Shown: positions 34,109-37,297 of the stretch, one piece after another | How positions within the stretch are numbered: position 1 is the stretch's first letter | Layout of the letters: each line of letters begins with the position of its first letter | Assembly: GCF_002160305.1 (NCBI RefSeq) | Contig: NZ_NFKI01000001.1 | Span: 62,001-126,000 of the forward strand | Direction of reading: 5' to 3' | From: Pseudoflavonifractor sp. An184 | GTDB lineage: Bacteria; Bacillota; Clostridia; Oscillospirales; Oscillospiraceae | Length of the DNA stretch: 64,000 nucleotides | The notes under the pieces: generated by a model | The model's database searches: none | What the model was told of the DNA's origin: nothing | The model's input: only the letters and a program-made list of their open reading frames with translations | Made by a program: the position numbers and the translations under genes

Positions 34109-34474
34109 ATGAAAAAATTAGGTTTCGCTTGTATCTTATGCTTTTCTCTGGCGCTGTTAAACGCTTGCGGCAACGCCACGTTTAATGGCAGCAGCACCGG
34201 GAATGATACCCAGTTTATCATGGAATACAGTATCTTAAATACTTCCGATCACAGGGCGATGCCTTTGAAAACGGGCGATGTGATTGATACAACCGTCGTA
34301 AGTGACGATGGAAGTGTAGACATTCAGGTAGAAAACAGTGAGGGAGAGCAGATCTATTCAGAAACAGATGTTCCCACTTCTGAATTTGAAATTGTGATCT
34401 CCCAAGACGATACTTACACATTTACCGTTACAGGACACAGGGCCAAAGGAAGCGTAAGTTTTGTAAATAGATGA
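34109..34474 (+). CDS. Small lipoprotein of unknown function
   Basis: 121 residues. ATG 34109 is chosen because GAGGG lies about 6 nt upstream; ATG 34097 and 34106 are alternatives. Signal peptide MKKLGFACILCFSLALLNAC with the lipobox cysteine at 20, then a small beta-rich domain of about 95 residues (TYTFTVTGHRAKGSVSF at the end). Similar short lipoproteins follow two-component systems in many Firmicutes; no function can be given. Confidence 0.7.
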   Translation: MKKLGFACILCFSLALLNACGNATFNGSSTGNDTQFIMEYSILNTSDHRAMPLKTGDVIDTTVVSDDGSVDIQVENSEGEQIYSETDVPTSEFEIVISQDDTYTFTVTGHRAKGSVSFVNR

Positions 34475-34495
34475 CCGGGAATTGAGGGAATGCCG

Positions 34496-35125
34496 ATGGA
34501 AAAGACGATTTTAGTTCACGGCTCCGGCCATAAGGCGGCCAGTTGGAAAGAGACCATCGCTTATCTAAATCACCCGGAGGAAATCTTCTGCCCGGAGTTG
34601 TCCGCTATTCTGGACGGGCGGGAGGCCATCTACCCCAATCTCCGTATTGCCTTTGAGGCGTACTGTGCCCAGGCGGGCGGGCCGGTTCACCTGTGCGGTC
34701 TCTCTCTGGGTGGAATTCTGGCCTTGGACTATGCGCTGGAGCATCCAGAGGATGTCAAGACCCTGGTGCTGATCGGTACGCCCCACAAGGTTCCAAAGGG
34801 GACCTTTGCTCTCCAGAATGTGGTGTTCCGCCTTCTGCCCAAGTCTACATTCACGTCTATGGCTTTTGACAAGAAGAACACCTTTGCTCTGGGAAACTCC
34901 ATGAAGGATCTGGACTTCAGCGGCAGGGTGGAGGAGATCCGCTGCCCCGCCCTGATCCTCTGCGGGGAGAAAGACAGTGCAAATCTGAAATCAGCCCATT
35001 TCTTGGCCGAACACATTCCGGACGCGGAGTTGCAGGTGCTGGAAAACACCGGTCATGTGGTGAATGAGGAGTCCCCCAAAGTATTGGCGGAGCGGCTGAA
35101 CGACTTTTACGCACGGCATCTTTGA
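34496..35125 (+). CDS. Alpha/beta hydrolase
   Basis: 209 residues; ATG 34496 has GAGGG 7 nt upstream and is preferred to ATG 34490. ILVHGSG near the N terminus gives the oxyanion region, Ser70 in GLSLGG is the nucleophile elbow, with a probable acid in CGEKD near 159 and His in NTGHVV near 186. A compact single-domain esterase/lipase-type hydrolase, cytoplasmic (no signal peptide). Substrate unknown. Confidence 0.83.
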   Translation: MEKTILVHGSGHKAASWKETIAYLNHPEEIFCPELSAILDGREAIYPNLRIAFEAYCAQAGGPVHLCGLSLGGILALDYALEHPEDVKTLVLIGTPHKVPKGTFALQNVVFRLLPKSTFTSMAFDKKNTFALGNSMKDLDFSGRVEEIRCPALILCGEKDSANLKSAHFLAEHIPDAELQVLENTGHVVNEESPKVLAERLNDFYARHL

Positions 35126-35171
35126 CTGTATCGTGGGCGCTTGCGGCTGCGGCAGAATATAAACATCATTC

Positions 35172-35305
35172 GGGAGGTGAGGCGGATGAAGCGCGGCCTT
35201 GATGTAGCTCCATGCAAGGCTTGACTTGGATGGACTTGTATGGAGCAAAATGTTAGCCATCCCAATGGCCTTGCATGGTGGAAAAGAAATAATCATGCAA
35301 AGGAG
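35172..35305 (+). promoter_or_regulatory. Leader region resembling a translational attenuator
   Basis: Four segments can pair in competing ways: segment 1 (35207-35220, containing CCATGCAAGGC), 2 (35236-35246, TTGTATGGAGC), 3 (35268-35278, GCCTTGCATGG) and 4 (35294-35305, CATGCAAAGGAG, the ribosome-binding site of the acetyltransferase). 1 pairs with 2 or with 3; 3 pairs with 4 and would hide the ribosome-binding site. A 12-codon leader ORF overlaps segment 1. Induction by ribosome stalling is known for cat and erm genes of Gram-positives. Confidence 0.6.
35186..35224 (+). CDS. Leader peptide of 12 residues
   Basis: MKRGLDVAPCKA, ATG 35186, with GGGAGG 8 nt upstream, ending 88 bp before the acetyltransferase start. 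Its last seven codons lie on segment 1 of the proposed attenuator. A translated leader is inferred from the good ribosome-binding site and position only. Confidence 0.5.
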   Translation: MKRGLDVAPCKA

Positions 35306-35312
35306 TATTGAG

Positions 35313-35966
35313 ATGAATTACAAAATGGTTGATTTCAGCACTTGGCCAAGAGGCGATCTGTTCCGGTTCTATATGGATCACATGCGGGTTGTCATGAGCC
35401 TGACGGTGGATGTGAACGTGACGCCGCTGGTTCGGTTCGTAAAAAAGAACGGCATGAAGTTCTATCCGACCATGATTTGGGTGGTGTCGCGGGTGATCAA
35501 TTCCCATGAGGAGTTCAAGTATGGCTGGGATGCAGATGGAAACTTGATCCGTTGGGACCTTATCTCTCCCAGCTACGCCCACTTCCATCCGGAGGACGGA
35601 AACTTCACCAAGCTGGTCACACCCTATAGAAAGGACCTGACGGAGTTCCACACCCGTTTTCTGGAGGATCGGGAGAAATACCGGGATCTCCGGGCTGTAG
35701 TGGAGGGCCAGCCAGCCAATCACTTTGACGTATCCTGCCTGCCCTGGGTACGTTACCGCCACTTCGATGTCCATGTGTTTGATCAGGGGGACTTTCTGGC
35801 CCCGGTGGTCACTTGGGGAAAGTACGAGGCGGAGGGCGATAAATTGGTCATGCCGCTGACAATGAATATCCACCATGCAGTGGCGGACGGCTTCCACCTA
35901 TCCCGCTTTTTTGCGGAGGTGCAGGAGCTGATAGACCGCCTGACCACAGACAGTCCCGCAGACTGA
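35313..35966 (+). CDS. CatA-like chloramphenicol acetyltransferase family protein
   Basis: 217 residues; ATG 35313, 7 nt after AAGGAG. It has the CAT fold landmarks: TWPRGDLFRFYMDHM near the N terminus, SPSYAHFHPED in the middle and the catalytic His near 188 in NIHHAVADGFHLSRFF. Family members transfer acetyl from acetyl-CoA to chloramphenicol as homotrimers. The sequence MVDFSTWPRGD differs from the classical enzymes, so the true substrate could be another compound. The upstream leader with alternative base pairing supports drug-inducible expression. Confidence 0.82.
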   Translation: MNYKMVDFSTWPRGDLFRFYMDHMRVVMSLTVDVNVTPLVRFVKKNGMKFYPTMIWVVSRVINSHEEFKYGWDADGNLIRWDLISPSYAHFHPEDGNFTKLVTPYRKDLTEFHTRFLEDREKYRDLRAVVEGQPANHFDVSCLPWVRYRHFDVHVFDQGDFLAPVVTWGKYEAEGDKLVMPLTMNIHHAVADGFHLSRFFAEVQELIDRLTTDSPAD

Positions 35967-36034
35967 GGCAAGTGATGAATAGATTTCTCGGGTAGTATGA
36001 CGCTATTTCAACAAATCACCGGATAAGATTAGGC

Positions 36035-36073
36035 AGAGGGGTGCCAGCATGATATGCTGGCACCCCTCTTTGA
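36035..36073 (+). terminator. Strong intrinsic terminator after the acetyltransferase
   Basis: Perfect 16-bp stem AGAGGGGTGCCAGCAT (36035-36050) with 36054-36069, loop GAT, followed by TTTG. Confidence 0.85.
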
Positions 36074-36129
36074 CTCAATATAAGTTTCCTGCTGGTTGAT
36101 TTAATCAATCAAAATCAAATAGAACTCCA

Positions 36130-36158
36130 TTGTTTTTCGGGTCTTTGTTCCTTATACC
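36130..36158 (+). promoter_or_regulatory. Promoter of the XRE/ABC operon
   Basis: TTGTTT (36130-36135), 17-bp spacer, TATACC (36153-36158), 20 bp before the start of the XRE gene. AT-rich inverted repeats (TTGATTTAATCAATCAA) lie about 35 bp upstream of the -35. Confidence 0.55.
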
Positions 36159-36178
36159 ATAGTCAGGTGGTGAGCATG

Positions 36179-37297
36179 ATGAAAGAAATCAATCTTGGTC
36201 GAGTCCTGATTGAGAACCGCCGCAAGCGAGGAATTACGCAAGAGGAACTGGCGGAATATATCGGAGTTTCAAAGGCCGCCGTTTCAAAGTGGGAAATTGG
36301 TATGACTTACCCTGACATTAGTCTGCTGCCACGGCTGGCTTCCTATTTCAATATCAGCATAGATGAATTGATGGGCTATAAGCCCCAGATGGATACGGCG
36401 GACATCCGAAAATGGTACAGCCGGCTCGCCAGGGAGTTCGCCGAGGGGGCTTTTGAAGAGACGTTGGAACAAAGCCGCAAACTGGCCAAGCAATACTGTG
36501 CCTGCTATCCGCTCCTATTCCACATTGGCTCTCTGCTGGTAAATCACGCAATGCTTGCCGGTACACAGGAGAGAACCTATCAAGTCATAGAAGAGGCAAA
36601 GGCCATCTTCTCCCGCGTGAGGACAGACAGCACTGACCCAAAGCTGGGGAAAGAGGCGCTACAGATGGAGGCTTACTGTCTGCTGGCGCTGCAACAGCCA
36701 GCGGAAGCGTTGGACCTCCTGGAAGAAGACTCGCCGGAGATCGGCCCCGCCGAACCGCTTCTGGCCAGTGCATATCAAATGACTGGAAACACGCTGGACG
36801 CCAAAAGGGTGCTGCAAGCTGGGATCTATAAACAGGTTGTGGCTTTTTGCAATCTTCTGCCGTCCTATATGAACCTTTCCATGGACGATCCGGAGAGGTT
36901 TGAAAAACTCTGCACGAGATTTCAAGCGGTTGCTGATGCGTTCCAACTGCAGCACCTGCATCCTGGCCTGCTGCTGTCATGCTATTTCATCATGGCCCGT
37001 GGCTGGGCTGTCCTGGGGGAGTCCGGAAAGGCACTTGATATGTTGGGGAAGTACACGGATCTGGCAACCAGCAGCATCTATCCGCTCCATCTTCACGGCG
37101 ACTCTTTTTTTGACCTGCTGGACGAGTGGTTCCATGATGTGCTCATTTTGGGAACAACTCTGCCCAGAGACGATACGGTCATCCGCCGCAGTATGACCCA
37201 GGCGCTCAAGGAGGACTCAGCTTTCGAGCCGCTGAAAGAAGAACCGCGCTTTCAGAACATGGTATCCAGGTTGGAACGAAACGAGGGGGAAACATAG
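36179..37297 (+). CDS. XRE-family regulator with long helical C-terminal domain
   Basis: 372 residues; ATG 36179 lies 8 nt after AGGTGG (GTG 36167 and ATG 36176 are alternatives). Residues 8-62 are an HTH of the Cro/CI type (GITQEELAEYIGVSKAAVSKWE). The remaining about 300 residues are helical with TPR-like spacing. The stop is 1 bp before the ABC ATPase start. Regulators of this build commonly control an adjacent ABC-2 exporter; the inducer may be the exported toxic compound or peptide. Confidence 0.85.
   Translation: MKEINLGRVLIENRRKRGITQEELAEYIGVSKAAVSKWEIGMTYPDISLLPRLASYFNISIDELMGYKPQMDTADIRKWYSRLAREFAEGAFEETLEQSRKLAKQYCACYPLLFHIGSLLVNHAMLAGTQERTYQVIEEAKAIFSRVRTDSTDPKLGKEALQMEAYCLLALQQPAEALDLLEEDSPEIGPAEPLLASAYQMTGNTLDAKRVLQAGIYKQVVAFCNLLPSYMNLSMDDPERFEKLCTRFQAVADAFQLQHLHPGLLLSCYFIMARGWAVLGESGKALDMLGKYTDLATSSIYPLHLHGDSFFDLLDEWFHDVLILGTTLPRDDTVIRRSMTQALKEDSAFEPLKEEPRFQNMVSRLERNEGET

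Follow-up and report, generated by a model that had tools for sequence, protein, structure and literature searches.

The leader of the CatA-like chloramphenicol acetyltransferase gene of Pseudoflavonifractor sp. An184 is probably a translational attenuator in which a drug-stalled ribosome would mask only the 5′ part of the first of its pairing segments (segment 1). It lies in a stretch of 64,000 nucleotides (the window, to which all coordinates given without a locus or contig refer) from a genome of 3.59 Mb in 162 contigs. Comparison with related leaders establishes a conserved leader open reading frame (ORF), a conserved predicted OFF fold of two helices (1:2 and 3:4), and a conserved predicted alternative, the ON fold 1a:b3, which excludes both helices. 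Judged by sequence, comparable modules lie in front of Mef-like efflux genes elsewhere. From the layout and the folding models, we infer that the CatA-like gene would be drug-induced.

All elements of the leader are on the + strand. The ORF, MKRGLDVAPCKA, has 12 codons (35186–35224; ATG at 35186, TGA at 35222–35224) and is translatable by its sequence, with a Shine–Dalgarno sequence (SD) of its own, GGGAGGTGA, read at 35172–35180. The end of the ORF forms segment 1 (35207–35220), whose partner is either segment 2 (35235–35246) in the OFF fold or segment 3 (35268–35278) in the ON fold. In the OFF fold, segment 3 pairs instead with segment 4 (35294–35305), which includes the SD of the CatA-like gene, AAGGAG (35300–35305). 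Segments 1, 2, and 3 are supported by folding and by the leader alignment, segments 1 and 3 additionally by inverted repeats, and segment 4 by the 3:4 pairing. Between segments 1 and 3 lie segments a (GGATGG, 35228–35233) and b (CCATCC, 35257–35262), which pair with each other in the leaders of both CatA-like and MFS genes and lengthen the 1:3 fold.

The inverted-repeat listing (repeats of at least 9 nt) contains 1:2 and 1:3 only. The former appears as 35202–35218 against 35235–35251 (82% complementary), and the latter as 35210–35220 against 35268–35278 (11 nt, 100% complementary), making 1:3 an exclusive alternative. Segments 2 and 3 run in the same sense, and the listing has no inverted repeat between them. 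An earlier note on this DNA had proposed the pairing of segment 1 with 2 or 3 and of segment 3 with the SD, as well as the 12-codon ORF with its SD overlapping segment 1. Its coordinates hold, repeats and folding agree with the pairings, and the ORF is present, whereas segments a and b had been overlooked. The remark in the same note that the segment logic departs from the known cat and erm leaders is likewise justified, given the missing 2:3 repeat and an arrangement that is not of the single-hairpin cat type.

The gene itself (35313–35966, + strand) encodes a protein of 217 amino acids that matches Pfam CAT at 2.4e-58. The nearest solved chain by sequence is that of CAT III (3cla, 1.9e-48), and the motif HHAVxDGFH is common to both in the alignment. 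The name CatA-like is used because the score for NCBIfam CatA (NF000491, type A chloramphenicol acetyltransferase), 215.5 bits, is under the cutoff of 270, even though the Pfam CAT threshold is reached and the motif aligns with CAT III. A terminator-like hairpin (15-bp stem, loop GAT, then TTT) can be read 3′ of the gene at 36036–36070 on the + strand. The nearest homologues (86–87%) are found in Lachnoclostridium, Pseudoflavonifractor, Flavonifractor, Fournierella, and an uncultured Oscillospiraceae bacterium. At four loci (L034–L037), the leader and gene form a unit that is 99–100% alike over 4.6 kb (in 200-nt blocks) in Pseudoflavonifractor An85, Flavonifractor An10, and Fournierella massiliensis; the copy in Lachnoclostridium An14 is 95–100% alike from about position 1800, and its upstream DNA is unrelated. 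Because such near-identity extends across differently labelled genera, recent transfer of this unit is likely. At E up to 0.01, blastn found nothing similar to the window leader among plasmids and phages.

Folding of the 181-nt leader yields −58 kcal/mol, compared with a mean of −45.2 kcal/mol for shuffled sequences (z −3.25; 0 of 200 shuffles as good). Its predicted minimum fold consists of two hairpins, 1:2 and 3:4, with the CatA-like SD within 3:4, and the equilibrium probability of 3:4 is 1.00 without a ribosome. Transcription attenuation was set aside, as the SD itself is paired and no + strand terminator-like site is listed in the leader. No intrinsic terminator was found between the leader ORF and the gene; the pattern scan gave no + strand terminator-like site in 34400–36400, although its sensitivity is limited, since it also missed the hairpin at 36036–36070. 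A pattern scan of the region found no consensus promoter on the + strand. A two-state RNA that sequesters an SD upstream of several gene families could also be a ligand-binding riboswitch or a protein-binding RNA instead of a switch read by ribosomes, but this is very improbable. Rfam covariance models gave no match in the leaders of the window and five relatives (the sub-threshold matches all fell outside the leaders), and the loops and linkers are poorly conserved across leaders, whereas the SD, start, and stop of the leader ORF are conserved.

A search of a genome collection yielded 55 CatA-like loci. Model R2, a covariance model trained on MFS leaders only, detects the leader at 26 of these (E 9e-14 to 2.4e-4) and detects the window leader at E 1.1e-10, the E-values of these models being rough; inspection by eye of the 190 nt upstream gave the same 26 loci. 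The drug-attenuator layout recognized in the earlier note thus recurs at 26 of 55 homologous loci, and a ribosome-stalling translational attenuator is the best reading of it. At five of the other 29 loci (L069, L084, L086–L088), the matched stretch does not include the 5′ part of the gene, and the rest showed no such leader. At L071–L076, two stretches about 100 nt 5′ of the CatA-like start (GTGTATGAAG and GAGGCTTGTG) resemble, by eye, decayed segments 2 and 3; no leader ORF is recognizable there, and the covariance model gives no match.

A second model, R1, built from 24 CatA-like leaders, has matches at E up to 0.05 in 55 of 400 genomes of the family and 58 of 391 genomes of the class, the weaker share of which are likely due to chance. 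Gene types downstream were assigned by reading translations, some of which are cut by contig ends. Thirty loci of the family search were examined: seven precede CatA-like genes, 19 MFS genes, and two CD3324-family genes, while two have no related gene. In the class search, the 24 rows with E up to 2.5e-4 (window included) comprise four CatA-like genes, 17 MFS genes, one leader without an intact gene, and two cases with no related gene. When applied to 398 genomes of the phylum, R2 gave 13 matches at E up to 0.01, 12 of which were classified (L166 aside): the window, three MFS genes (L155, L156, L163), five CD3324-family genes (L159–L162, L165), one leader-like stretch without a gene (L157), and two with no related gene. 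Matches rejected for want of a related gene were L122 (E 6.6e-4), L124, L147 (6.1e-5), L148 (2.5e-4), L151, L152, and L154 for R1, and L164 and L167 for R2.

The MFS proteins of L103, L156, and L163 (the latter two as 200-aa pieces) match the NCBIfam H+ antiporter model TIGR00900 and are Mef(A)/(B)-like, far under the Mef cutoffs. Divergent relatives of the switch precede small CD3324-family (Mor-like) genes at L159, L160, L161, L162, L165, L123, and L125; for the R2-matched genes (L159–L162, L165), the family is confirmed by NCBIfam. These leaders have retained the RNA segments, but their ORFs use other frames of segment 1 and the SDs of these ORFs are weaker; their inclusion in the switch family, proposed from sequence, is therefore tentative.

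Two sets of leaders were aligned. The CatA-like set (n = 24) holds the window, L010, and 22 of the 26 R2-positive loci, with L035–L037 (duplicates of L034) and L068 (diverged) dropped. The MFS set (n = 36) excludes L112 (insert), L116 (another SD word and spacing), L144 (no intact gene), weaker neighbours of L149 outside the retrieved loci, and the one-hairpin leaders L150 and L163. The layout shared by the 60 leaders is in part a result of selection, because leaders were chosen for having the segments. A stop codon lies directly 3′ of segment 1 in 22 of 24 CatA-like and 29 of 36 MFS leaders, and an SD-like word (loose motif test) lies 5′ of the leader start in all 24 and in 33 of 36, respectively. 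In the excluded leader L112 (1511–1990), a few hundred extra nucleotides separate segments 2 and 3 and are followed by an apparently normal segment 3, segment 4, and MFS start.

Leaders also occur on contigs classed as viral in IMG/VR. Scanning viral contigs with a 17-base leader pattern gave seven stretches, among them one leader, L095, which precedes an MFS gene. A less stringent scan yielded 100, and a strict filter on those among L170–L259 retained the layout in one, L191, which is known from the leader layout and gene start alone. The leaders of L095 and L191 may be prophage cargo or lie on misclassified contigs.

Covariation supports the OFF fold in both sets and the ON fold mostly in one. 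In the MFS set, 94.3% of cells are paired over the 18 pairs of the OFF fold, and both partners changed in nine pairs, compared with 2.4 in shuffles that, like all those used here for covariation, ignore the relatedness of the leaders. Over the 16 pairs of the ON fold (1a:b3), 85.3% of cells are paired, with 47 double-change cells (shuffles 21.7) and ten double-change pairs (shuffles 6.4), a count equalled or exceeded in 7 of 500 shuffles; further pair types (29 against 26.3, 53 of 500 as high) are not clearly above the shuffles. Both sides changed in 8 and 14 sequences at the ON-only pairs 48:92 and 49:91 (alignment columns), respectively, and all three pairs of the a:b helix show changes on both sides among the 36 leaders.

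In the CatA-like set, the OFF fold is paired in 95.4% of cells and has ten double-change pairs against 3.1 in shuffles. By helix, 98.1% of cells are paired for 1:2, 92.1% for 3:4, 82.6% for 1:3, and 73.4% for a:b. The ON fold is paired in 79.4% of cells (shuffles 76.7) with a covariation score of 0.162 against 0.122. Because its double-change pairs are no higher than in shuffles (5 against 3.8, 135 of 500 as high), the case for the ON fold rests mostly on the MFS set. The CatA-like SD thus falls within a conserved helix, 3:4, and a conserved alternative fold that would free it exists in 1a:b3, with weaker covariation in the CatA-like set. That the repeats are due to chance, or a non-functional relic, has next to no probability; the z-score of −3.25 from folding the single window leader would alone leave some room for this idea, but compensatory changes and model matches occur in dozens of genomes.

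Where a stalled ribosome would have to stand was modelled by refolding each leader after deletion of its 5′ portion, to 16 nt beyond the base that opens the P-site codon. Codons are counted from segment 1, whose first base opens codon 8 (6 of the 36 MFS leaders start at another codon), and P4, P5, and so forth denote the codon in the P site. For the CatA-like set, the mean probability of 1:3 rises from 0.21 in the absence of a ribosome to 0.70 at P4 and 0.72 at P5, and falls to 0.32 at P6 and 0.04 at P7. The corresponding values for MFS leaders are 0.41, 0.56, 0.78, 0.27, and 0.15, and from P8 on the probability is at most 0.01 in both families. The probability of 3:4 falls from 0.83 without a ribosome to 0.46–0.48 at P4–P5 in CatA-like leaders, and from 0.76 to only 0.62–0.65 (0.62 at P5) in MFS leaders. 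SD exposure peaks at P4–P5; at P5 it is 0.60 (CatA-like) and 0.44 (MFS) against 0.45 and 0.26 without a ribosome, and it exceeds 0.5 in 67% of CatA-like and 47% of MFS leaders against 17% and 6%. The peak of 1:3 stays at P5 ± 1 for footprints of 13–18 nt. It arises because a ribosome stalled early covers the part of segment 1 that 1:2 requires, the GCUCC end, while the GCAAGGC end, required for 1:3, stays accessible.

Such footprint folding had been suggested in the earlier note, and over the 24 CatA-like and 36 MFS leaders the SD-freeing fold does peak near codon 5, while leaders with shuffled cores are flat in SD exposure (0.48–0.53 for CatA-like, 0.40–0.43 for MFS). The window leader alone, in contrast, shifts only partially: at equilibrium, 1:3 reaches 0.33 at P4 and 0.18 at P5, with 3:4 still at 0.67 and 0.86. 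When the window transcript is cut short of segment 4, the probability of 1:3 is 1.00 at P4 and P5, 0.02 at P7, and 0.98 without a ribosome. For such short transcripts, 1:3 exceeds 0.5 at P4 or P5 in 23 of 24 CatA-like and all 36 MFS leaders and at P8–P12 in one CatA-like and three MFS leaders, and it is already favoured without a ribosome in 14 of 24 and 29 of 36, respectively. Kinetics therefore matter, as the folding here is at equilibrium and many short transcripts favour 1:3 even without a ribosome. On these models, the OFF state may need a ribosome running to the stop codon, or refolding after segment 4 has been made.

A late stall of the classical erm or cat kind (about codons 8–12) would remove the whole of segment 1, and the freed segment 2 or melting would expose the SD. 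Codon 8 encodes alanine in 18 of 24 CatA-like and 35 of 36 MFS leaders and would be penultimate with the P site at codon 9, and one-hairpin relatives are also opened by stalls at codons 5–9. This logic is nonetheless decidedly unlikely here: the same-sense orientation of segments 2 and 3 offers no anti-attenuator, the GCT at codon 8 is also fixed by the 1:2 pairing, and with the P site at codons 7–12, where 1:3 is nearly or wholly lost, 3:4 stands at 0.93–0.99 in both families. The early stall near codon 5 remains the preferred reading.

The leader peptide is consistent with a stall at this position. In the CatA-like set, codon 2 is lysine, codon 4 glycine or cysteine, and codon 5 leucine or isoleucine in all 24 leaders, and the stop is at codon 13 in 22. 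The residue at codon 4 is glycine (19) or cysteine (5) in CatA-like leaders and cysteine (25), alanine (8), or serine (1) in MFS leaders, a small residue in 58 of 60, with isoleucine and methionine in the other two; codon 5 is leucine or isoleucine in 53 of 60. The four-segment leaders take the peptide forms MKxGLD or MxLCI. A P site at codon 5 would make the residue of codon 4 the penultimate one. According to the accessible text of PMC8987054, stalling by chloramphenicol and linezolid is governed by the penultimate residue, namely alanine and to a lesser extent serine or threonine; glycine, found at codon 4 in most CatA-like leaders, is not among the residues named there for chloramphenicol. 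Five leaders (L109, L118, L120, L107, L110) have three extra N-terminal codons (e.g., MIRLPLCIVSAPRKV), and the distance from the L-C/A-I triplet to segment 1 is kept, hinting that the fixed distance is from triplet to fold and not to the start codon.

A related peptide start appears in leaders with a different RNA. One-hairpin leaders precede CatA-like genes at L012 (MKMGLDVAF), L013 (VKRGLDTAS), and L153 (MKRGLDEAF), each peptide ending at a stop codon, and a single hairpin covers the SD of MFS genes at L150 and L163. In all five, footprint folding gives an SD exposure of 0.00–0.01 up to P3 and 0.14–0.74 at P4. Searching 394 genomes of the order for an exact pattern gave two matches, the genome of L153 and that of the window itself. 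The latter contains a second intact CatA-like gene of 212 amino acids (G000:C13:34204–34892, minus strand; loci L031 and L169), 50% identical to that of the window, whose leader VKRGLEEAS, also followed by a stop codon, lies on a one-hairpin attenuator. Its hairpin is predicted to open from about P5, with an SD exposure of 0.03 at P4, 0.22 at P5, and 0.43 at P7. Similar peptide starts on different RNA suggest that the peptide itself matters.

It is conceivable that any slowing of leader translation, by starvation or any inhibitor, shifts the fold and that the peptide is incidental. Segment 1 is fixed as RNA (codons 9–12), codons 3–6 are divergent in some MFS leaders, CD3324 leaders use segment 1 out of the usual frame, and many transcripts that end short of segment 4 favour 1:3 as long as segment 1 is free of a ribosome. 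This reading is unlikely, however, in view of the start [MV]K[RM]GL[DE], retained in four one-hairpin CatA-like leaders with differing RNA, and of pN/pS values of 0.42 (CatA-like) and 0.55 (MFS) at codons 4–6 against 1.00 and 1.29 at codons 7–8. The pN/pS comparison is a weak test, because codons 9–12, where RNA pairing is the explanation, are low too (0.40 and 0.31).

The proposed early-stall mechanism would operate as follows. Without a drug, ribosomes would translate the whole 12-codon ORF and reach its stop, where segment 1 ends. Running ribosomes would cover segment 1, or 1:2 would re-form behind them, which would leave segment 3 to pair with segment 4 and conceal the SD. Stalling at about codon 5, where the small residue encoded by codon 4 is penultimate, would be caused by a peptidyl-transferase drug, most likely a phenicol or one with the same context preference. 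The leading edge of the stalled ribosome would mask only GCUCC(AU) of segment 1 and thereby destroy 1:2. The GCAAGGC part and segment a would stay free to pair with segments 3 and b, upon which segment 4 would be released and the resistance gene translated.

A wider proposal, held with somewhat less than even confidence, is that these leaders form a family of switches in Clostridia that register where a ribosome has stalled, to within about one codon. Segment 1 would be split by the ribosome edge, its 5′ half serving the OFF helix and its 3′ half the ON helix; stalls near codon 5 would open the switch best and later ones shut it, with earlier stalls and free RNA mostly shut at equilibrium. The module, with its small penultimate residue, would sense one class of peptidyl-transferase drugs (perhaps an unknown gut natural product) on behalf of unrelated resistance genes, and one-hairpin cousins resembling cat-86 would have kept the peptide start. 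If true, sequence would allow inducible resistance to be predicted in gut Clostridia, in which genes of this kind are difficult to test. More genes controlled in this way can be sought directly with the covariance models, and because codon 4 keeps a small residue, natural leaders lend themselves to tests of context-specific stalling by drugs.

The phenicol exporters fexA and cmlA are described as preceded by attenuators in the part of PMC5418344 consulted, so acetyltransferase and exporter genes were both already known to use attenuation, a likeness drawn from description and not from sequence. Neither an earlier description of this kind of leader nor a leader family shared by CAT-like and MFS genes was found among the literature matches listed, nor were the leader peptides in a text search, among the matches listed there; all this is weak evidence of absence, and subscription papers lie mostly outside these searches. 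The streptococcal mef/mel operon, like the Mef-like MFS genes here, has an attenuator upstream of a Mef efflux gene, described in the available text of PMC4335068 as a transcription attenuator. The window leader differs in that its SD itself is paired and no + strand terminator-like site is listed in it.

In cat-86, one hairpin hides the SD, the leader ORF overlaps its arm, and the ribosome stalls after about five residues (MVKTD), with threonine at position 4. The window leader resembles cat-86 in having a leader-borne stall, here predicted, upstream of a cat-type gene. It differs in that its ORF overlaps the arm of a separate upstream hairpin, 1:2, in a four-segment switch with 3:4 apart. 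If overlap of the ORF with the arm of the SD hairpin is taken to define the cat-86 type, the second CatA-like gene of the genome belongs to it, and the window leader does not. Chloramphenicol induction of Gram-positive cat attenuators through a ribosome stalled at a specific leader site is described in the portion of PMC4191407 that was accessible, and is indicated by the title of a work cited there (Alexieva 1988).

The erm scheme is built on a 2:3 anti-attenuator helix. Complementarity of segments 2 and 3, taken as the mark of the erm type, is not found in the window leader, whose ON helix is 1:3 (with a:b) and not 2:3. Moreover, segment 1 must stay partly free, and mainly an early stall works in the folding test. 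What the window leader has in common with ermC and ermB is a leader peptide and an alternative structure, which in these genes accompany a stalled ribosome that exposes the SD (PMC8274638 and PMC5418344, as far as their accessible parts describe it); in the window, the stall is predicted. The sequences and folding models support a variant of leader-peptide translational attenuation with 1:3 logic, common to at least two unrelated families of resistance-type genes. If true, it would constitute a third way, beside the erm and cat schemes, for the ribosome to read out a drug.
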